64,000 nt of DNA from Elusimicrobium sp. (GTDB lineage: Bacteria > Elusimicrobiota > Elusimicrobia > Elusimicrobiales > Elusimicrobiaceae): assembly GCA_015062115.1 (NCBI GenBank), contig SUVG01000007.1, forward strand, positions 1-64,000. The letters are read 5' to 3'. Positions 10,379 to 20,138 of the stretch are shown piece after piece (positions within the stretch are counted from its first letter, which is position 1; each line of letters starts with the position of its first letter). The notes beneath the pieces were generated by a model. The model saw only the letters and a program-made list of their open reading frames with translations. It made no database searches and was not told where the DNA came from. The translations under genes and the position numbers were made by a program.

Positions 10379-10876
10379 CTACAATATTCTACACTCGGGT
10401 GTTCCCTTTTTTTTCATTAAAGCCCGATACAATAAATAAACGGGTTTTTGAAGTTTGGGGTGCACATACTCCGGCAGAATATAAGAAAGGGGTTTTAATA
10501 CAAATTCCCGCTCGTGCAAACGCGGGTGGGGGATAAAGAGCATATACTCGTCATCATCTTCAAAGACGATTTGGTCGTCATAAAATAAAATATCCAGGTC
10601 AATCACGCGCGGCCCGTCCTTAAAAGTAGGTACGCGGCCCAGTTTGGTTTCCAGGGCTTTTAATTTTTTAAGTAAATCGAGCGGTTTGTACGGCGTACTT
10701 AAAATCAGCACCGTATTTACAAAATCGGGTTGGTTGGGGAACCCTTCGGGCTTGGACACAATGTAGGGGGCCACCTCTTTAACGGTGCCCAAATCGGCCA
10801 GGGCTTTTACGGCGCGGTCTATATTTTCTTTGGCGGGAGCAATGTTGCTTCCCAAAGCAAGAACGGCTTGAGCCAT
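10379..10876 (-). CDS. folK: 2-amino-4-hydroxy-6-hydroxymethyldihydropteridine pyrophosphokinase
   Basis: The protein is about 165 residues from the ATG at 10876, with GAGGAG just upstream; an ATG 36 nt earlier is inside the preceding gene. HPPK motifs are present: LALGSNI at the N-terminus, the FVNTVL strand, and DGPRVIDLDILFYDD with the two Mg-binding Asp residues, then IPHPRLHEREFVLKPL. It uses ATP to pyrophosphorylate hydroxymethyldihydropterin for FolP. It is the last gene of the DUF1189-queD-queE-folE-folP-ptpS-folK operon; its start lies just before the stop of the PTPS gene. Confidence 0.93.
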   Translation of the reverse strand: MAQAVLALGSNIAPAKENIDRAVKALADLGTVKEVAPYIVSKPEGFPNQPDFVNTVLILSTPYKPLDLLKKLKALETKLGRVPTFKDGPRVIDLDILFYDDQIVFEDDDEYMLFIPHPRLHEREFVLKPLSYILPEYVHPKLQKPVYLLYRALMKKKGTPECRIL

Positions 10877-10877
10877 A

Positions 10878-11228
10878 TTATTCTTCTCCTCTGTATTCAA
10901 TCCAGCGGTCACTTTCTTCGGCTACTTTTACGCTGTACACAAAAGGGAACTTCGCCTGTACCCGTTCAAACAACCAAATGGCCAAGGTTTCGGTAGTCGG
11001 GTTGGAAAATAAAGAGTTCAAATCGGCATGGTGCAAGCGGGTATTTATTTTATGTGTAAAAAAATCTTGTAATACCCGAAAATCAATTAAATATCCTTCC
11101 TCGTTTAAGGGGCCGTGGAAGGTAATTTCGTAGTGAAAATTATGCTCGTGAGAGGCTTCCGCCAAGGTGCCGCCGTGTCCGTGGCGGGCGGCAAACTGAC
11201 CGCACTGGGTAAGATAAACTTTTTTCAT
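10878..11228 (-). CDS. PTPS-III-type 6-pyruvoyltetrahydropterin synthase paralogue (FolB substitute)
   Basis: The 116-residue T-fold protein uses the ATG at 11228, where GGAG lies upstream. Zinc His residues are kept (AARHGH and H27, H29). The catalytic Cys of QueD/PTPS is missing, and Glu24 sits three residues before His27, giving the E-x-x-H-x-H signature of PTPS-III. This group is known to cleave the dihydroneopterin side chain and replace dihydroneopterin aldolase (FolB). The gene lies between folP and folK, and no folB is in the operon. A true QueD is encoded separately at 13139, so this copy is unlikely to make queuosine. Confidence 0.8.
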   Translation of the reverse strand: MKKVYLTQCGQFAARHGHGGTLAEASHEHNFHYEITFHGPLNEEGYLIDFRVLQDFFTHKINTRLHHADLNSLFSNPTTETLAIWLFERVQAKFPFVYSVKVAEESDRWIEYRGEE

Positions 11229-12019
11229 TTTGAAGACTCCAATTCTTGGTAAAAATTGATGATTTTGCGTGTCTCTTTTACGTCGTGCACACGCAGAATA
11301 TCGGCCCCGCCTTGCAAGGCCACTAAATTGGCGGCCAATGTTTGGGCTTTGCGTTTGGGGGCGCCTTCGCACTTTTGGCTTAAAAAGGTTTTTCGCGAGA
11401 GACCCGCAAGCATTTGTACGCCCAGTTCTTTGAACTCGCTCAGATGCTTTAAGAGTTGGTAATTTTGCGCGCGTGTTTTGGCAAAACCAAAACCCACATC
11501 AATAATAATTTGCTCTTTGGTAAGGCCGAATTTTTCGGCTTGGGCAATTTTAGCGGCGAGAAAAGTTTTTACTTCGCCGATTAAATCTGCATAGTCGGTA
11601 TGTTCCTGCATGGTTTGCGGCGTTCCGCGCGTGTGCATGAGCACAATTTGGGCCTTAAAATCTTTAATCAGTCGGAACATATCCGTGTCGGGCGTACCGC
11701 TGACATCATTGATGATGCATATGCCCTGCTTGAGCCCTTGCTCGGCCACGGGAAGTTTTACCGTATCTAAAGAGAGGGGAATTTTCGGCCAATTCTTTTT
11801 TGCAGCCGTAATAACCGGGAGCACGCGGGAAAGTTCTTCTTCGGCGGATACGGGGGTTGCCCCCGGGCGGGTAGATTCTCCGCCGATATCAAGCATATCG
11901 GCCCCGCTTTGCACATATTCCTGGCACTTCGCTACCAGGGCCGGCAGGTTATTTTGCGGGTTTCCGTCAAAAAAAGAATCGGGCGTGGCATTTACAATGC
12001 CCATGAGTTTTGCGGTCAT
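11225..12019 (-). CDS. folP: Dihydropteroate synthase
   Basis: The 264-residue TIM-barrel enzyme has the DHPS signatures MGIVNATPDSFFDG near the N-terminus and DIGGESTRPGA. The pterin-binding IINDVSG and the C-terminal ILRVHDVKET are also present. It condenses hydroxymethyldihydropterin pyrophosphate with p-aminobenzoate. It lies 6 nt after folE and overlaps the PTPS-III gene by 4 nt at its end, so coupling is likely. Residues 60-80 are the family's usual sulfonamide-interaction loop; nothing unusual is visible. Confidence 0.95.
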   Translation of the reverse strand: MTAKLMGIVNATPDSFFDGNPQNNLPALVAKCQEYVQSGADMLDIGGESTRPGATPVSAEEELSRVLPVITAAKKNWPKIPLSLDTVKLPVAEQGLKQGICIINDVSGTPDTDMFRLIKDFKAQIVLMHTRGTPQTMQEHTDYADLIGEVKTFLAAKIAQAEKFGLTKEQIIIDVGFGFAKTRAQNYQLLKHLSEFKELGVQMLAGLSRKTFLSQKCEGAPKRKAQTLAANLVALQGGADILRVHDVKETRKIINFYQELESSK

Positions 12020-12025
12020 AAAAGA

Positions 12026-12646
12026 TTATTTAATCATTTCCAAAAATTCACTGCGAACTTCCAACTTTTTGAACGCGCCGCGAATAGCACTGGTTACCAT
12101 AACGGCGTTGTGTTTTTCGATACCGCGGGAACTGATGCACATATGCTTGGCTTTGCATACCACCATCACACCGTGCGGCTCCAAGGTTTCCATTAAGCTG
12201 TCGGCAATTTCCGCCACCAGTTTTTCTTGGATTTGCAAGCGCCTTGCGAACACTTCCACCAAACGGGCCAATTTGGATATACCGAGCACGCGGCCTTTGG
12301 GTAAGTAGCCAATGCTGATGGTGCCGAAGAAAGGTTGAAGGTGGTGTTCGCAGGTAGAATAAAATTCAATATCTTTCAGGACGACCATTTCTTCGCAAGA
12401 ACCTTCCGTAAAGGTTTTAAGCACATCTTGCGGTTTCATTTTGTAACCGCCGTAAAGTTTTTTCCAACTGCGTAAAATGCGGTGGGGGGTTTCCAATAAA
12501 CCTTCGCGGGCCGGATCGTCGCCGATATAGGCTAAAATTTCGCGCAGATTATTTAGAATTTTTTCTTCGGTTAACGAATGTTTATCAGTTTGTGCGTTTG
12601 CAGGCTTAACCGCGCGGCGGGATGTTTTTTTAACAGTTTTACGCAT
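12026..12646 (-). CDS. folE: GTP cyclohydrolase I
   Basis: The 206-residue protein contains the FolE signature: the zinc ligands in STCEHHLQPF and in VVCKAKHMCISSRG, then VTSAIRGAF. It converts GTP to 7,8-dihydroneopterin triphosphate. In this operon that product feeds both QueD (queuosine) and the PTPS-III/FolK/FolP route (folate). A basic N-terminal tail of about 25 residues (RKTVKKTSRRAVK) is extra. The ATG at 12646 overlaps queE by 76 bp, but AGGAG lies 10 nt before it and supports this start. Confidence 0.95.
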   Translation of the reverse strand: MRKTVKKTSRRAVKPANAQTDKHSLTEEKILNNLREILAYIGDDPAREGLLETPHRILRSWKKLYGGYKMKPQDVLKTFTEGSCEEMVVLKDIEFYSTCEHHLQPFFGTISIGYLPKGRVLGISKLARLVEVFARRLQIQEKLVAEIADSLMETLEPHGVMVVCKAKHMCISSRGIEKHNAVMVTSAIRGAFKKLEVRSEFLEMIK

Positions 12647-13164
12647 AGGGCTATATTCTCCTGTAAGTTACTTTCGGGTTGTAGATAAATTTGTGTTTTG
12701 TCGTTTTCGTAATTATAGTATTTTTCCAAATCGGCAAGGTCGGTTTCTTGGCCTACTACGATTTTGATAACATCGGCCTTTTTCAGCATTTCCTGGCTGA
12801 CATATTTTTTGGGCGAAACGCAGACAAAATCTGCCCGGCTTACATCGCAATCGTGCGCGCCGTTTGTTTCCAAGTGGACGCAATATCCGGCCGATTTTAA
12901 GGCGGCAATGAGGGAGGGCAAATCTTGTTCGGCAGGTTCTCCGCCCGTAATTACCACCGTTTTGCAGGGGTATTCGGCCAAGGCCACAAGCACTTGCAGG
13001 GAGTTCATTTCTTCCCCTGTTTGGAAGGCGTATTTGGTATCGCAAAAAGAACAACCCATGGTGCAACCTGCTAGACGCAAAAATACGGCGGGCATACCGG
13101 TATGGCGGCCCTCGCCTTGGATAGAATAGAAGATTTCGTTAACCTTCCACGATGGCTGCGGCAT
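12571..13164 (-). CDS. queE: 7-carboxy-7-deazaguanine synthase
   Basis: The 197-residue radical SAM enzyme has its [4Fe-4S] cluster Cys at 34, 38 and 41 (CTMGCSFC, followed by DTKYAF as in QueE). FYSIQGEG at the N-terminus and VITGGEP are also typical. It converts 6-carboxy-tetrahydropterin to 7-carboxy-7-deazaguanine in queuosine synthesis. It overlaps queD upstream by 26 bp and folE downstream by 76 bp. The C-terminal LSLQTHKLINIR matches the family end, so the long overlap with folE is real coding on the queE side. Confidence 0.93.
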   Translation of the reverse strand: MPQPSWKVNEIFYSIQGEGRHTGMPAVFLRLAGCTMGCSFCDTKYAFQTGEEMNSLQVLVALAEYPCKTVVITGGEPAEQDLPSLIAALKSAGYCVHLETNGAHDCDVSRADFVCVSPKKYVSQEMLKKADVIKIVVGQETDLADLEKYYNYENDKTQIYLQPESNLQENIALCVKLLKKHPAARLSLQTHKLINIR

Positions 13165-13483
13165 TGTCGCTCTCCCAAATTTCCAAGGTTTTAAGCGTTA
13201 AATTCATTTGGGCGAGTTCCGCTCCGATTTTTTGGAACAGAAACTGGGCCAAGTTTTCCGCGGTGGGGTTTTCTACCCAGTCGTTTAAGAGTTGATGGTC
13301 GGGCAGGTTTTCGTCCAATAATTTTTTGATTACTTTGAAATCGCATACCATACCGTCTTCTTTTACGGGCCCTTCAATGACAAAAACGGCTTTCCAGGTA
13401 TGTCCGTGCAAATCGTGGCAGGGGCCGTCGTAATGCGGAAGGCGGTGGGCCGAACTAAAAGAACGAATCAGTTTAATAAGCAT
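13139..13483 (-). CDS. queD: 6-carboxy-5,6,7,8-tetrahydropterin synthase
   Basis: The 114-residue T-fold protein has complete QueD residues: zinc His13 in SSAHRLPHYDG, catalytic Cys22, and His26/His28 in CHDLHGH. A DFKVIK segment and the late PTAENLA are also family hallmarks. It makes 6-carboxytetrahydropterin from dihydroneopterin triphosphate, the step before QueE. It overlaps queE by 26 bp and starts 1 nt before the DUF1189 stop. The intact C-x3-HGH motif contrasts with the PTPS-III copy at 10878 and separates the two roles. Confidence 0.93.
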   Translation of the reverse strand: MLIKLIRSFSSAHRLPHYDGPCHDLHGHTWKAVFVIEGPVKEDGMVCDFKVIKKLLDENLPDHQLLNDWVENPTAENLAQFLFQKIGAELAQMNLTLKTLEIWESDNAAAIVEG

Positions 13484-14224
13484 CTATTTCTCCTCGGTTA
13501 AAGTGTTGAAAATTTGTTGCACATAAATGATGCATAAAATCACTTGAGCCAGCGTAAAAAGCGGAATATAGAACCACAGGCGCACATACCAAAGCGCGCA
13601 AAAGGGGCCTAAGATAAAAAACGCCCATTTGAAAATGGCCGCGCGGGGGATAAAAAGGCCGCCGAGCAACTTAAAGAAAAGCCCTACCGCCGAGGCTACA
13701 CAAAAACCGAATAGAAGAACAAAGGGGATAATCATTAGGCTTGCCATAAACGAAATGGCACTGAGCGAAAATTCCAACGTATCCTGTTGTTTAGCCAAGA
13801 ACTCTTGTGTGGTGGTGAAAGTGGCCTCTGCGGGAATAGGTTGGGCTTGTACTCCGGCCGAAGTGGGCATATACATTTGGTTCCCGGTTACCAACATCAG
13901 TATCCCTTTTTCCGCCATTTCGCTCTGTGTCGGAGGGACTTGGCGTGCGGCATCGAAAACAATTCGAAAATCAGTTTGGGGAATTGTAACGGATAAAGGC
14001 TCTTGCGGAGCGGTAAGCACCCCTTTTTCAAAGGTAACCTGCGGGAAGTTTTTTAGTAAAACGGGTAAGTTTTTTTCAATGTGGTGGTCAGCCGCAAAAT
14101 GAAAAACAAGTACGGAAAGCAAAAACAAATACACGCCAAACGCTATCATCTGCTTGCGGGAAGCAAACAAGAGGCGTTTGTAAAAACTAAAAGAAAAAAT
14201 CGTTTTGAAATGTAACCACAACAT
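13484..14224 (-). CDS. Membrane protein, DUF1189-like
   Basis: The 246-residue protein begins with a helix-rich FKTIFSFSFYKRLLFA segment and has about five transmembrane segments: one near residues 28-48, then several after residue 150. A periplasmic region of roughly 100 residues lies between. This fits the DUF1189 layout, which has no known function. It is the first gene of the pterin operon (1 nt before queD). TATAAT lies six bases before the ATG, with a TGG extended -10, so the operon message should be leaderless. Whether it takes part in pterin or folate uptake is only a guess from position. Confidence 0.6.
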   Translation of the reverse strand: MLWLHFKTIFSFSFYKRLLFASRKQMIAFGVYLFLLSVLVFHFAADHHIEKNLPVLLKNFPQVTFEKGVLTAPQEPLSVTIPQTDFRIVFDAARQVPPTQSEMAEKGILMLVTGNQMYMPTSAGVQAQPIPAEATFTTTQEFLAKQQDTLEFSLSAISFMASLMIIPFVLLFGFCVASAVGLFFKLLGGLFIPRAAIFKWAFFILGPFCALWYVRLWFYIPLFTLAQVILCIIYVQQIFNTLTEEK

Positions 14225-14230
14225 ACTTAA

Positions 14231-14236
14231 ATTATA
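14231..14236 (-). promoter_or_regulatory. -10 hexamer TATAAT of pterin operon, leaderless start
   Basis: TGG-TATAAT on the minus strand ends six bases before the ATG at 14224. It is the only clear promoter found for the seven-gene operon. Confidence 0.6.
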
Positions 14237-15020: not shown

Positions 15021-18000
15021 ATGTCTAATAAATTATTTTCGTTTTTTTCTAAAGATGCCGAACCGACTACCGAACCCGTTAAAACCCTAACCCCGGAGAT
15101 GTATGCCTTTTTGGAGCATTTCCCCACAGCTGTGCTTTTATTGGAAAACAGCGGTAAAATCGTTTTTGCCAATATGGCTGCATCGGCTTTACTGCGCACG
15201 AAAGTTTCCGCTCTTACTTCTTCCACGGTAGATCGTTTCGGCCTTACCATGACCCAGGTGCGTTCTATGACAGACGCCCAAAACCCTCAAAAAATGGTGC
15301 ATGAAGTGGTAACTACGGATGCCGATTCCCTGACGGTCAGCGTAGGGGCCACCATTTTGGCTTCCACGCCGTTTATCATGCTTACCTTGGAAGATGTTCC
15401 TCATTTTCAGCAACTAAAAGAAGAAAAGGCCTTCTTTGCCTCTATCTTAAATAAAGAGCCGCAAGCGATAGTGGTGCAAAACTTTGCCGGCATCTGCGTA
15501 TTTTGGAACAAACACGCGGAAGAACTTTTCGGCCATAAAGTCGAACAGGTGGAGGGCAAATCTATTTACGACTTATTGCCCAAAGAAATGGAGCAAGCCG
15601 TCCGCCGTTTAGACGAAGAACTCCGCAAAAAACAGGAATCTCGCCGTGATGTGCAGTTTTCTTGTAAAAAAGAAGACGGGAAAGACCGGGTGCTTTCCGT
15701 GGATAAAGAGATTATTCCCGGCCCGGACGGAAAACCGCGCTACATTTTAAGCCTGTTTGACGATGTAACGGAGCGTAGCGAAAAGGAGCATGTGTTGTCT
15801 CAAAAACAAATTTTGTTGCAGGCTATTTTGGACAACGTCCCCTTAGGGCTTTACACACGCGACAACAAAGGTGTGATGACCTACTTTAACAAGCAAAGCA
15901 TGAAGGTGCTTAACGAAGCAGACCCCACCCGCACGGATAAACCCCATGCCTTGCAATCGCCCGACCAAGTGGAATTTCACCGCATACGCGAAGCGCAAAT
16001 TTTGCAAGAAGGTAAACGCCGCGATTTTCCGGAAGAGATATATACGGACGCGGAAGGCAACAAAATTATCCTGCACATGATTAAAGTTCCGTTGTGGGAC
16101 GCGGGCCCGAACCCGGTAGTGCTGACCATTGTGGAGGATATCACGGCGCGCCGCTTGCAAGAAAAAGAAATCAAGCGCGTAAACGGCCTTCTCTCCGCTA
16201 TTCTGCAAAATGCTCCGATGGGCTTGTATGCGCGCACGGCGGACGGCCGCATGTTGTTACGCAACCGCAAATGTGCGGATTTGTTTGGGGAAGAAACGGA
16301 ATCCGCTTTTGATTCTACCGGTAAACTCCCGCACGAAACAGAGGAACAGGTAAATGCGTATGTAGCCCGTGAGCAGGAACTGTTGAGAAGCGGACAAATC
16401 ATTGATATTCCCGAGGAACCTTATGTTACTGCCGCCGGAGAAGAACGCCTGCTCCACCTCATTAAAGTTCCCGTAAAAGAAGAATCCGGGCAAGAATCGT
16501 TTGTGGTAACCATGGTGGAAGATGTAACGGAAAAACGTGCGCAAGAACGCAGTTTGATTGAAACCAAGAACTCTCTGCAAACTATTTTGGAATATGTGCC
16601 TGTGGCCATTTATGCCCGCAAAGTGGACGATACGCTTTGCTACATTAACCGCCGCGCGCATGAAATTTTCCCGGACGAAAGAGAATATGTCGCCAAGGAC
16701 GACTTCTACGGACAACGCGAGAAAAACATCTTCAAAGAAGGGAAAGTGTTGGAATTCCCGGAAGAGTGGTACACCACCTTGCGCGGGGATAAAATTTTGT
16801 TACACCTCATCAAAGCCCCTGTATTTGATAAAGAAGGAAACCCCTTCATGGTGCTGACCGTAGCGGAAGACATTACCGAGAAAAAGCAACAGGAAAAAGC
16901 CATCGTGGATGCCAAAAACTTCCTGCAGACGGTTATTGACCAATTGCCTCTTTCGTTGTCGGTTAAAAACTACGACGGTAAATATATCTTATGGAACAAG
17001 AAAAGTGAAGACTTGTTCGGTGTAGGTGCGGCGGATGTAATCGGTCGTACCTCTTATCGGGCCGATATCAACAGGGAGCAAGCGGAATTTTTGCGCGAAT
17101 CGGACTTGCGTGTGTTTGAAAACAAAAAAGAGCAGGATATCCCGCAAGAACTTATTTCTACCGCTGCTGACGGCGTAAAAATTATGCATACCGTTAAAAC
17201 CCCGGTGTTTAATTCGGACGGCACCCCGAACTGCTTGCTTGTCGTGTCTGAAGATATCACCGCCAAAACCCGCATGGAAAAACAGATTCGCGAAGCAAGC
17301 GATAAAAATACACTCTTGGTAGAAAACGCGCGGGAAGGGATTGTTATTTTAGATGACGGAAAAATTATTTACACCAACCGCGCCTTCTGCCATATTTTAG
17401 GTTACGAAGACCCCGCGGATATCAAAGGCCAAGCCCTGCTGGACTTTGCCGCAGAAGACCACCGCCCCTTCCTTAAGGATAAATGTGATTCCGTCTTGGC
17501 CGGGGCGGATAACGCCTCCAACGCCATGGAAGTACATTTTGTAAAGAAGAAAGGAGGCGAGGTAGAGGCCGAGTTTGCCGCCGTTGCCAGCAAATACCTG
17601 GGCCGCCGTATTACCCTGTGCTTCGTGCGCGATGTAACCACCTCCAACCGTATGCTGCGCGATATGAAGACGGAGCGCGAATCGTTGCGTTCGGCGTTCG
17701 AAAAGAGCATCACCCCGTCTTTTATCCTTTCCAGTAAAGGTTATATTACGGTAATGAACGAAGCCTGCCGCAATTTGTTCGGTTTTACGGAAACAGACAA
17801 AAAGTTCTACCGCAATGTGTATATCAAACCGGCGATTCGCCTGGCGGTTCGCAAGAATCTCAAAATGGGTCAGCCCGCTCAAATGGACTATACCTTTGAT
17901 TTCGAACGTGCCGCAGAAAAATTCCCCGGCCGCATTGAAGGAACGGGCCAACTGCATCTTTTGGCCAATTTTGTGCCGATAAACAAGCGCGATACCAAGG

Positions 18001-20138
18001 ATGGCACGGTAGAAGCAGACTACATTGTTTTTTTAGAGAAAAAGGAACCGAAGGACGAGCCTGAACCGCCCTCCTCGGTACCTCCTGCGCCTAAACCCCC
18101 GGTTGCCCCGGTTGAAGAACCCAAAGCACCGGTCGTTTTACCACCTCCACCGCCGGAAAAGCCCCAACAAGCGCCGGCGGCGCTTTCTTCTCACGCACGG
18201 GAAACTTTAGTGCTCCCCAACAGCGAGCCCTATGCGCTTTGCTCCAAAGATTTCAAAATACTTTCCTGCAACGCGCTTTTTCGTTCTTTGTGCCAACTGG
18301 AAGAAAACGAACTGATCGGTCAGCCGATTATGTATGTTTTCCATAGCGATTTTCAAGCAGCTCTTACGCAAGATTTATTCACTCTTTCTGCGGACGGGGC
18401 TATTTCCAACCGGGAATACCGGCTTAACCTGGCCAGCGGGTTGGAAAGCACTTCCGTCCGGGTCAGCGCGGTAAAGGAAGCGGACGGGCGGTATTTGTTT
18501 GTGTTGCGCAATTTGGCTTTTCATCAGCAAATTATGCGTATTTTGGAAGAACGCTCCGCTCAACTCAATGCTTTATTGGAAGCGACGGACGGCATTGTTT
18601 TTTCCGTTTGGTTTGAAAAAGACCGTTTCGGCCAAATTGAACAAGCCAATAAATTTCTTTCCCGCAAACTGGGCTATTCGCACGAAGAATTGGTGCGGAT
18701 GTCTTTTGCCGATCTCTTTACAAACGGGGAAGGGGCGGCTGCTAACCCGGCCCAAGTATTAGCCCAAGCAGAAGGGGAACTTGCCTCTCATGGCAAAACT
18801 TCCTTCCGCTTGCCGGTGCGTAAAAAAGACGGCGAAGTGTTTGAAGCACAAGTGATGCTTAGCGCATTGGATCTCCCTTCCAAAGATGCCGCTTTGGTAA
18901 TTATTTACGATCTTTTCCAGCAACTCGACCGTGTGGCCAAAGATTCCAAAGAAGCCAAAGAACTCAAATGTGTCCGCCAAGCGTTGCCGGGGTTGTACTT
19001 AAAAACGGATAGCGAAGGGTTGGCCTTGGAAGTATATTCCAATTTAGATTATTTGGATAACGAACAAACGCAGGATATCTTTTTGGACAGATTCCCCGGT
19101 CAGTATTGGTCTGCGGAAACTGCTTCGCGGGCACTTTTTGCCATTAAAGAGGCGTTGTCTATCAATGTGAGTACTCGGTTTGAATTTGAGTGGGAAGTAT
19201 CCGGTAAGGTTCGCTATTACGAAGTACTTGTTACACCTATTTCCGGGTGCGGAGAAGCGGTACTGTGGATAAAAGATGTATCGGGCAAACACGCCTATGA
19301 CGAAAAAGTGCACGAACTTTACCGCATTACACGCGAACCGGGCCTTTCCCTTACCGAACAGGTGGAAAAGATTTTGGCTTTCGGGCGTAAAATTTTCCGC
19401 AGTGATGTGGGGCTGGTGTTGCGTTTCCACAAAAATCGGGAGCAGTTGGAAAGTATGGTGGCATATGCTACCAAAAACGATTTGCATTTAGAACGCCATA
19501 TGGAGTTTGCCGTAGAAGAGTGCTTGACCGATGTAGCCGACGGAAATGTAGTGTTAATTTCCGACGGGGAAGCCCTTTCCTGTACGCGTTGTTTGCACAA
19601 AGCCAAAGGGTTAAATGCTCTTTTAGCCGCTCCTTTATATATGGGGGGAAAGGTTACCGGGGCGCTTTGTTTTGCTTCTCAGGAACCGTGCCGCAATTTC
19701 CCGGAAGGAGCCGAGGAGTTAATCGGCATTATGGCGCGCATTTTAAGCCTTCGTTTGGAACTGCGCCAAACGGGTAAAATGTTAAGCGAAGCCTCGCGTT
19801 CCTTGGCAAAAACCCTGGAATATGTGGAAATGCCGGCTGTTATTATTGGGCTTGACTATCATGTCACCTTTGTAAACCATGCCATGTTGCGCATTACCGG
19901 CAGACGAACGAGTAATATGTTAGGGAGAGATTTTTTCGAAGAAGTTATTCGCAATGATGACCTTTCTAAACAAATGTTCAAGGCGGCGGAAAAATCTTCT
20001 ACCGCGCAGGCTTTCCAAGTGCGGTTAGATTTACTGCGCGAAAATGGTCTCTACGAAGATACTCCGTGGGACGTTTTTGTGTGCAAAAATGCAGAGGGGA
20101 AAGTGGACGGTTATGCTTTAATAGCCTCTGCTGTATAA
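15021..20138 (+). CDS. Giant multi-PAS/GAF sensory protein without visible output domain
   Basis: The product has 1705 residues and no signal peptide or transmembrane segment. About twelve PAS folds can be delimited. Eight run from residue 25 to 1010; repeats 3-6 share a PEE-Y-T-x-x-G-x-K-x-L-H-x-I-K-x-PV block and end in V-x-x-V-x-EDIT linkers. A Pro-rich linker lies at 1013-1060, three PAS at about 1070-1430, a GAF domain at about 1440-1590 and a last PAS to the end. There is no histidine kinase, GGDEF, EAL, receiver, phosphatase or methyl-accepting domain. It could be a ligand- or redox-sensing scaffold acting through partners. It is monocistronic. Confidence 0.85.
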   Translation: MSNKLFSFFSKDAEPTTEPVKTLTPEMYAFLEHFPTAVLLLENSGKIVFANMAASALLRTKVSALTSSTVDRFGLTMTQVRSMTDAQNPQKMVHEVVTTDADSLTVSVGATILASTPFIMLTLEDVPHFQQLKEEKAFFASILNKEPQAIVVQNFAGICVFWNKHAEELFGHKVEQVEGKSIYDLLPKEMEQAVRRLDEELRKKQESRRDVQFSCKKEDGKDRVLSVDKEIIPGPDGKPRYILSLFDDVTERSEKEHVLSQKQILLQAILDNVPLGLYTRDNKGVMTYFNKQSMKVLNEADPTRTDKPHALQSPDQVEFHRIREAQILQEGKRRDFPEEIYTDAEGNKIILHMIKVPLWDAGPNPVVLTIVEDITARRLQEKEIKRVNGLLSAILQNAPMGLYARTADGRMLLRNRKCADLFGEETESAFDSTGKLPHETEEQVNAYVAREQELLRSGQIIDIPEEPYVTAAGEERLLHLIKVPVKEESGQESFVVTMVEDVTEKRAQERSLIETKNSLQTILEYVPVAIYARKVDDTLCYINRRAHEIFPDEREYVAKDDFYGQREKNIFKEGKVLEFPEEWYTTLRGDKILLHLIKAPVFDKEGNPFMVLTVAEDITEKKQQEKAIVDAKNFLQTVIDQLPLSLSVKNYDGKYILWNKKSEDLFGVGAADVIGRTSYRADINREQAEFLRESDLRVFENKKEQDIPQELISTAADGVKIMHTVKTPVFNSDGTPNCLLVVSEDITAKTRMEKQIREASDKNTLLVENAREGIVILDDGKIIYTNRAFCHILGYEDPADIKGQALLDFAAEDHRPFLKDKCDSVLAGADNASNAMEVHFVKKKGGEVEAEFAAVASKYLGRRITLCFVRDVTTSNRMLRDMKTERESLRSAFEKSITPSFILSSKGYITVMNEACRNLFGFTETDKKFYRNVYIKPAIRLAVRKNLKMGQPAQMDYTFDFERAAEKFPGRIEGTGQLHLLANFVPINKRDTKDGTVEADYIVFLEKKEPKDEPEPPSSVPPAPKPPVAPVEEPKAPVVLPPPPPEKPQQAPAALSSHARETLVLPNSEPYALCSKDFKILSCNALFRSLCQLEENELIGQPIMYVFHSDFQAALTQDLFTLSADGAISNREYRLNLASGLESTSVRVSAVKEADGRYLFVLRNLAFHQQIMRILEERSAQLNALLEATDGIVFSVWFEKDRFGQIEQANKFLSRKLGYSHEELVRMSFADLFTNGEGAAANPAQVLAQAEGELASHGKTSFRLPVRKKDGEVFEAQVMLSALDLPSKDAALVIIYDLFQQLDRVAKDSKEAKELKCVRQALPGLYLKTDSEGLALEVYSNLDYLDNEQTQDIFLDRFPGQYWSAETASRALFAIKEALSINVSTRFEFEWEVSGKVRYYEVLVTPISGCGEAVLWIKDVSGKHAYDEKVHELYRITREPGLSLTEQVEKILAFGRKIFRSDVGLVLRFHKNREQLESMVAYATKNDLHLERHMEFAVEECLTDVADGNVVLISDGEALSCTRCLHKAKGLNALLAAPLYMGGKVTGALCFASQEPCRNFPEGAEELIGIMARILSLRLELRQTGKMLSEASRSLAKTLEYVEMPAVIIGLDYHVTFVNHAMLRITGRRTSNMLGRDFFEEVIRNDDLSKQMFKAAEKSSTAQAFQVRLDLLRENGLYEDTPWDVFVCKNAEGKVDGYALIASAV

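Follow-up and report, generated by a model that had tools for sequence, protein, structure and literature searches.

The window, that is, the first 64,000 nucleotides of contig SUVG01000007.1 from Elusimicrobium sp. (assembly GCA_015062115.1), carries at positions 10379-14236 of the minus strand an operon with the gene order DUF1189-queD-queE-folE-folP-ptpS-folK, in which two PTPS proteins are encoded. The second of these, ptpS, is probably a divergent, PTPS-III-like replacement of FolB that acts beside QueD, both enzymes being fed by the FolE product; judged from sequence comparison, we put the probability of this reading at about 0.8. Dihydroneopterin triphosphate (DHNTP), the product of FolE, would feed two pathways from one operon: the Cys-type QueD would form 6-carboxytetrahydropterin from it, which enters the queuosine route through QueE, and ptpS, with Glu24 in place of the cysteine and a three-histidine zinc site, would cleave it to 6-hydroxymethyl-dihydropterin (6HMDP), which FolK would take onward, ptpS thereby replacing FolB. 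An original prediction made from this DNA had proposed a folate-queuosine operon with a PTPS-III-type FolB substitute, and the proposal is supported, as neither a genuine folB elsewhere nor a position of ptpS within QueD came to light, with the proviso that the strict signature ExxHGH is absent. The bypass of FolB is argued for by the lack of a detectable folB, by the association of the glutamate with FolK, by open frames shared between ptpS and folK, by the linkage of both genes in genome G089, and by the placement of ptpS outside QueD.

The literature on these enzymes assigns the motif ExxHGH to PTPS-III and CxxxHGH to QueD, and describes CExxHGH hybrids that can serve both pathways (PMC5041015); the glutamate is reported to replace or accompany the cysteine, and the claim of a PTPS-III in Rickettsia (PMC4674097) is disputed (PMC5615194). 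PTPS from Plasmodium forms 6HMDP from DHNTP via Glu38, and the exchange E38C abolishes the reaction (PMC2229834). Since Glu38 is the equivalent of Glu24 in ptpS, the Plasmodium enzyme counts for the bypass of FolB. The features of ptpS on which the comparison is based are as follows:

10878-11228, minus strand: ptpS, divergent and PTPS-III-like, proposed FolB bypass, 116 amino acids (PF01242, 9e-18; AlphaFold; Foldseek)
11142-11159, minus strand: active-site motif E24-A-S-H27-E-H29 of ptpS, with the PTPS-III glutamate and two predicted zinc histidines; E24, H27 and H29 invariant (n = 36)
11175-11183, minus strand: H16 (predicted zinc histidine)-G-H18 (extra loop histidine) of ptpS; equivalent of H18 in 52/52 family members

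The whole active-site segment reads F12-A-A-R-H16-G-H18-G-G-T-L-A-E24-A-S-H27-E-H29, and all 36 ptpS sequences of the genus share H16, H18, E24, H27, H29 and E104. In the wider ptpS family of 52 members, defined by a glutamate at the given spacing with one sequence per genome, a loop cysteine is present in none, a histidine occupies the H18 position in all, and the glycine between the last two histidines is found once, the other 51 sequences being HxH. Cys9 of the window ptpS lies outside the loop, and Ala, Ser or Thr stands there in the others. The loss of the catalytic cysteine, which had been predicted, was therefore confirmed; of the PTPS-III motif that had also been predicted, the glutamate is in place (E-A-S-H-E-H), whereas the published signature ExxHGH is replaced by ExxHEH. 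By motif ptpS is not a QueD either, as both CxxxHGH and the Asp-His pair are missing; the window copy at 13139-13483, queD, retains them (PCHDLHGH and PDHQLLN), in agreement with the C-x3-HGH stated for it earlier. The hybrid motif CExxHGH is found in G105 and G091, which belong to this family, and in neither window copy.

The Asp-His pair, which we take to be part of the PTPS catalytic triad, with role and numbering as in work on mammalian PTPS, deserves separate mention; a 1995 paper reportedly dealt with an intersubunit catalytic triad in PTPS. The pair is present in 111 of the 112 Cys-only PTPS (one of which is truncated), in all 91 proteins with both Cys and Glu, and in none of the 55 readable Glu-only PTPS (52 of the ptpS family and three from families f3 and f4; a 56th is masked at this point). 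In the window ptpS (LHHADLN) the aspartate is replaced by histidine and the histidine position is still a histidine, as in four of the 55 sequences including this one. Single residues of the pair do persist in some Glu-only sequences; it is the pair as such that is not under constraint there. The first zinc-histidine column and the C-terminal glutamate column are kept in 56/56 Glu-only PTPS. A decaying gene was considered and rejected on the invariant columns and a median dN/dS of 0.11 over 46 pairs.

The only Pfam family matched by the window ptpS is PF01242, above cut-off, with no match to PF02152. Its AlphaFold model (pLDDT 95.1, pTM 0.87) has the PTPS fold; Foldseek ranks P. aeruginosa PTPS (2oba), P. 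horikoshii PH0634 (2dj6) and E. coli QueD (3qna, 4ntk) at the top, with TM scores by query length of 0.85-0.88 for the first eleven hits and Plasmodium PTPS lower in rank. PH0634 is also the best structure match by sequence (aligned segments WEDVHGH and LDHRNLN); PTPS-III-like by motif, it has the glutamate without the cysteine, but unlike ptpS it possesses the Asp-His pair. With E. coli QueD, a PTPS-I (4ntk), ptpS shares the fold (TM 0.86-0.88 by query length) and the zinc histidines, and differs in having Glu24 and no cysteine. Compared with the PTPS-III enzymes of Plasmodium, bacteria and archaea, ptpS agrees in the glutamate three residues before the first histidine (E-x-x-H, E24), the missing loop cysteine, the zinc histidines and C-terminal glutamate on a PTPS/T-fold, and the folate gene context with no folB found; it departs from them in HxH (51/52), in the lost Asp-His pair, in the extra loop histidine (52/52), and in sharing one frame with folK in at least six relatives. 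By the strict signature ptpS is not a member of PTPS-III, yet most likely it works like one.

The same divergence bears on the substrate. An unlikely alternative, though the best of those considered, is that 6HMDP is made, after a phosphatase step, from dihydroneopterin or its monophosphate, ptpS then being a genuine aldolase built on the PTPS fold. This would suit an active site that has moved away from PTPS-III in its HxH, its missing Asp-His pair and its extra histidine, and the monophosphate has been suggested for some archaeal PTPS-III (PMC5041015). On the other hand, no phosphatase domain occurs in the seven operon genes (the rest of the genome was not searched for phosphatases), purified Plasmodium PTPS gave the product only from DHNTP (PMC2229834), and the substrate is not a property readable in sequence.

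The genome-wide search for folB, proposed earlier as a check, returned no PF02152 match in the own genome or in its 60 relatives (0/61), 10 of 14 control genomes being positive. Among 250 genomes of the phylum with a completeness of at least 85%, PF02152 was found in 46 (43 above cut-off), all 46 belonging to families f5-f12 within the same class and none to f1-f4; FolK was found in 217 and PTPS in 240. A cryptic folB of the PF02152 family was rejected on the basis of these three results, from the own genome, the 61 genomes and f1-f4. FolK is present in 37/37 genus genomes examined, and the own genome also has QueC, FolC and Tgt; an operon unrelated to folate was rejected because FolK, FolP and FolC are present. 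A contig scan with the single ptpS protein yielded three uncultured Elusimicrobium loci and did not reach other phyla.

The PTPS comparison draws on sequences from 209 of the 247 genomes in which a match was present. A Glu-bearing PTPS was found in none of the 38 genomes with both FolB and FolK, nor in the single genome with FolB and without FolK, which amounts to 0/39 for all FolB-positive genomes read. These 39 stem from the 46 mentioned above (G152, G153, G155, G157, G159 and G161 were unfetched, and G167 has no PTPS match) and include G137-G139, whose FolB matches lie below the curated cut-off. Where FolK occurs without FolB, the glutamate is present in 139 of 143 genomes, 83 with Cys and Glu in one protein and 56 with a Glu-only copy, which mostly accompanies a Cys-only PTPS; of the four exceptions, G129 and G130 are genuine, and G083 and G095 have a further PTPS copy listed but unread, as do G004, G081, G088, G151, G158, G193, G224, G226 and G239. 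For 44 single-copy genomes of the order, the glutamate occurs in 27/27 with FolK and in 4/17 without it, so that 13 of the latter 17 lack it (Fisher p = 4.6e-8, uncorrected for relatedness). In the overall set of genomes, 13 were scored as FolK-negative by subtraction, being absent from the FolK listing. Across eukaryotes, one survey saw no clear pattern of PTPS and folB (PMC4224340).

Several observations weigh against a FolB-replacing ptpS. When relatedness is taken into account, 144 single-copy rows give five supported independent pairs, of which about two agree, none opposes and about three tie; for the 44 order genomes there are two supported pairs, 1.7 agreeing on average. Judged by counts, the glutamate is strongly associated with FolK in the absence of FolB, and no pair speaks against this, but the independent events are too few for significance. 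Eight of the 27 genomes with neither FolB nor FolK keep the glutamate, G129 and G130 of family f5 have FolK, no FolB match and no glutamate in their single PTPS (pointing to an overlooked folB or to a further replacement), and G070, one genome of the genus, shows none of PTPS, FolK and FolB. The best NCBIfam match of the window queD, the QueD model TIGR03367, reaches 79.8 bits at a cut-off of 89.25, and queE likewise stays below its cut-offs. Finally, as HGH has become HxH and the Asp-His pair is gone in every member of the ptpS family, PTPS-III chemistry cannot be transferred to it residue by residue.

The arrangement of the genes in relatives provides further evidence. In at least six genomes (G004, G015, G019, G022, G031, G068), ptpS and folK lie in a single open frame of 285-334 residues, and Pfam finds both domains in each of the five frames scanned, G068 not being among them; a literature search excluding subscription papers, with sources available in part, brought up no description of such a frame. 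It resembles the FolB-FolK fusion of S. pneumoniae (PDB 2cg8), in which a 6HMDP-making enzyme is joined to HPPK, except that the fusion partner in the relatives is of the PTPS type and that the window genes are separate, 1 nt apart. In G089 the operon is distributed over two sites 147 kb apart, queD with queE-folE and ptpS with folK. In the sister family f2, a 545-residue frame of G038 (L255; G038:C20:25494-27068) matches FolC as well as FolK and is a probable FolK-FolC fusion, and FolK frames of comparable length occur in other f2 genomes.

A frame shared with folK in at least six genomes would fit a scaffold role equally well, and together with the lost cysteine and Asp-His pair it could suggest that ptpS is an inactive or regulatory partner of FolK or FolP, some other enzyme replacing FolB. 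This is very improbable in view of the invariance of H16, E24, H27, H29 and E104 (n = 36), of the low dN/dS, and of the CE-type enzymes of relatives, which bear the glutamate without any partner copy.

Most single-copy relatives read that lack FolB combine Cys and Glu within one PTPS (CExxHGH). Such PTPS-I/III hybrids can serve the same two pathways from DHNTP; in the window, by contrast, the cysteine and the glutamate are divided between two genes within the operon, queD being devoid of the glutamate. The genomes read of g1, g12 and g15 have the Glu-only ptpS, and their queD, where read, has Cys without Glu. G105, from another genus of the same family, carries DUF1189-queD-queE-folE-folP-folK on one contig, without ptpS; its queD, the sole PTPS match, is of the CE type (GKCEALHGH). 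In G091 a CE-type PTPS adjoins folP and folK. The genomes of f3 and f4 (G061-G064) have FolK, no FolB match and two PTPS copies, one Cys-only and one Glu-only. The latter keeps HGH (NYHGADEPLHGH and alike), the dyad histidine is a tyrosine in all three readable sequences, and a loop histidine is present in 4/4 where 55 of 63 matched CE-type sequences carry lysine. A loop histidine is thus common to both Glu-only groups, the ptpS family and f3/f4; the trees do not settle separate origins.

In the careful tree of 85 rows, from which motif and dyad columns were excluded as in the quick one, the Glu-only copies form one clade (99/99) that joins the QueD clade of their own family (95/85.8), the CE enzyme of G105 being placed with QueD by a poorly supported branch (82/32). 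In the quick tree ptpS falls together with the Glu-only copies of f3/f4, and the CE enzymes of other classes are close by. An AU test rejected neither of the two alternative groupings tried (p = 0.482 for both). Once the quick tree had been seen, 62 of 147 rows were dropped for the careful one, including the long rows from G090, G091 and a third PTPS homologue, so that the family clade of the careful tree excludes G090 and G091. This third homologue (about 200 residues; L253 in G083 and L254 in G097) reads GEAQYLHGH and has neither the QueD cysteine nor the PTPS-III glutamate. In neither tree is ptpS nested within QueD, and the idea that it is a PTPS-II or second QueD duplicating biopterin or queuosine synthesis, to which the weak, below-cut-off matches to TIGR00039 and TIGR03367 (QueD) might point, can hardly be upheld against the absent loop cysteine (52/52), the clade of its own outside QueD (99/99), the frame shared with folK in at least six relatives, and its stay with folK rather than queE in G089.

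As to origin, duplication within the family is plausible for ptpS, as opposed to transfer, and the one-enzyme operon of G105 may be ancestral or have arisen by reversion. We tentatively consider, at somewhat less than even odds, that a dual-function PTPS-I/III was split, without leaving its operon, into two specialized enzymes, the one for folate dropping the Asp-His pair and the HGH glycine and gaining a loop histidine beside the zinc histidine. The f3/f4 enzymes, with Glu and no Cys, the dyad histidine changed to tyrosine and a loop histidine, point the same way. If such a split took place, retro-aldol cleavage on the PTPS fold would need only zinc, the glutamate and perhaps a relocated histidine.

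FolB bypass by PTPS-III has been described before, as have CE hybrids; new, as far as we have seen, are the divergent ExxHxH branch that lacks the Asp-His pair, the shared folK frames, and relatives with one versus two enzymes. Along these lines, ptpS would offer a smaller active site for pterin cleavage of the PTPS type. None of the FolB-positive genomes read has the glutamate, and nearly all of those read that make folate without FolB do, so that the phylum would provide a natural experiment on a one-residue change and its reaction outcome. Furthermore, the one-enzyme operon of G105 and the two-enzyme operon of the window are matched and syntenic, which makes a conflict of two functions in one active site directly testable. 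Annotation by strict ExxHGH would miss ptpS, and these gut bacteria would be reported with a gap in their folate pathway.

The remaining features of the operon are:

14231-14236, minus strand: TATAAT as -10 box, preceded by TGG and lying 6 nt ahead of the DUF1189 start codon (ATG); probably the leaderless promoter of the operon
13484-14224, minus strand: DUF1189 gene, first in the operon (PF06691, 1.3e-10); homologues in the same place in relatives, 24-61% identity
13139-13483, minus strand: queD, PTPS-I (PF01242, 1.1e-28), with both motifs retained
12571-13164, minus strand: queE (PF04055, radical SAM); top NCBIfam matches are QueE models, all below cut-offs
12026-12646, minus strand: folE, GTP cyclohydrolase I, yielding DHNTP (PF01227, 2.9e-69; TIGR00063 above cut-off)
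11225-12019, minus strand: folP, dihydropteroate synthase (PF00809, 4.9e-80; TIGR01496 above cut-off)
10379-10876, minus strand: folK, HPPK (PF01288, 6.1e-33; TIGR01498 above cut-off)

All seven proteins have Pfam domains (DUF1189, PTPS twice, radical SAM, GTP cyclohydrolase I, pterin-binding, HPPK). In the order of transcription the spacings are 0 (DUF1189-queD), -26 (queD-queE), -76 (queE-folE), +6 (folE-folP), -4 (folP-ptpS) and +1 nt (ptpS-folK). The most likely start of folK is the ATG at 10876, favored over an upstream GTG at 10912 because it lies 1 nt past the ptpS stop and shortly behind AGGAG. The complete set occurs ordered on one strand in 31 of 35 relatives' loci searched, the other four being contig pieces without some of the genes; together with the spacings and domains, this bears out the seven-gene operon with gaps of a few bases or overlaps that had been described. 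A single leaderless promoter, also part of that description, is likely at DUF1189: TAWAAT occurs within 20 nt of its start in 22 of 31 relatives (shuffled rate 2.8%), nine having no match. Upstream of the later genes it was seen in 4/31 (queD), 0/32 (queE), 0/32 (folE), 0/34 (folP), 0/35 (ptpS) and 0/36 (folK), distances being taken from tblastn match starts.

The queE/folE overlap (12571-12646) covers 76 nt in different frames, with an aligned overlap of 73 nt in 26 of 32 relatives, and represents either genuine coding in two frames or an upstream folE start that is conserved. Outside the operon, a plus-strand frame of 1705 residues at window positions 15021-20138 contains, by eye and with no family search, repeated PAS-like sensor segments. 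Some relatives have an extra gene between folE and folP, of about 300 residues and with an N-terminus that by eye is signal-like, at 3670-4602 in L046, 2488-3420 in L050, 3754-4695 in L058 and 3498-4400 in L061.

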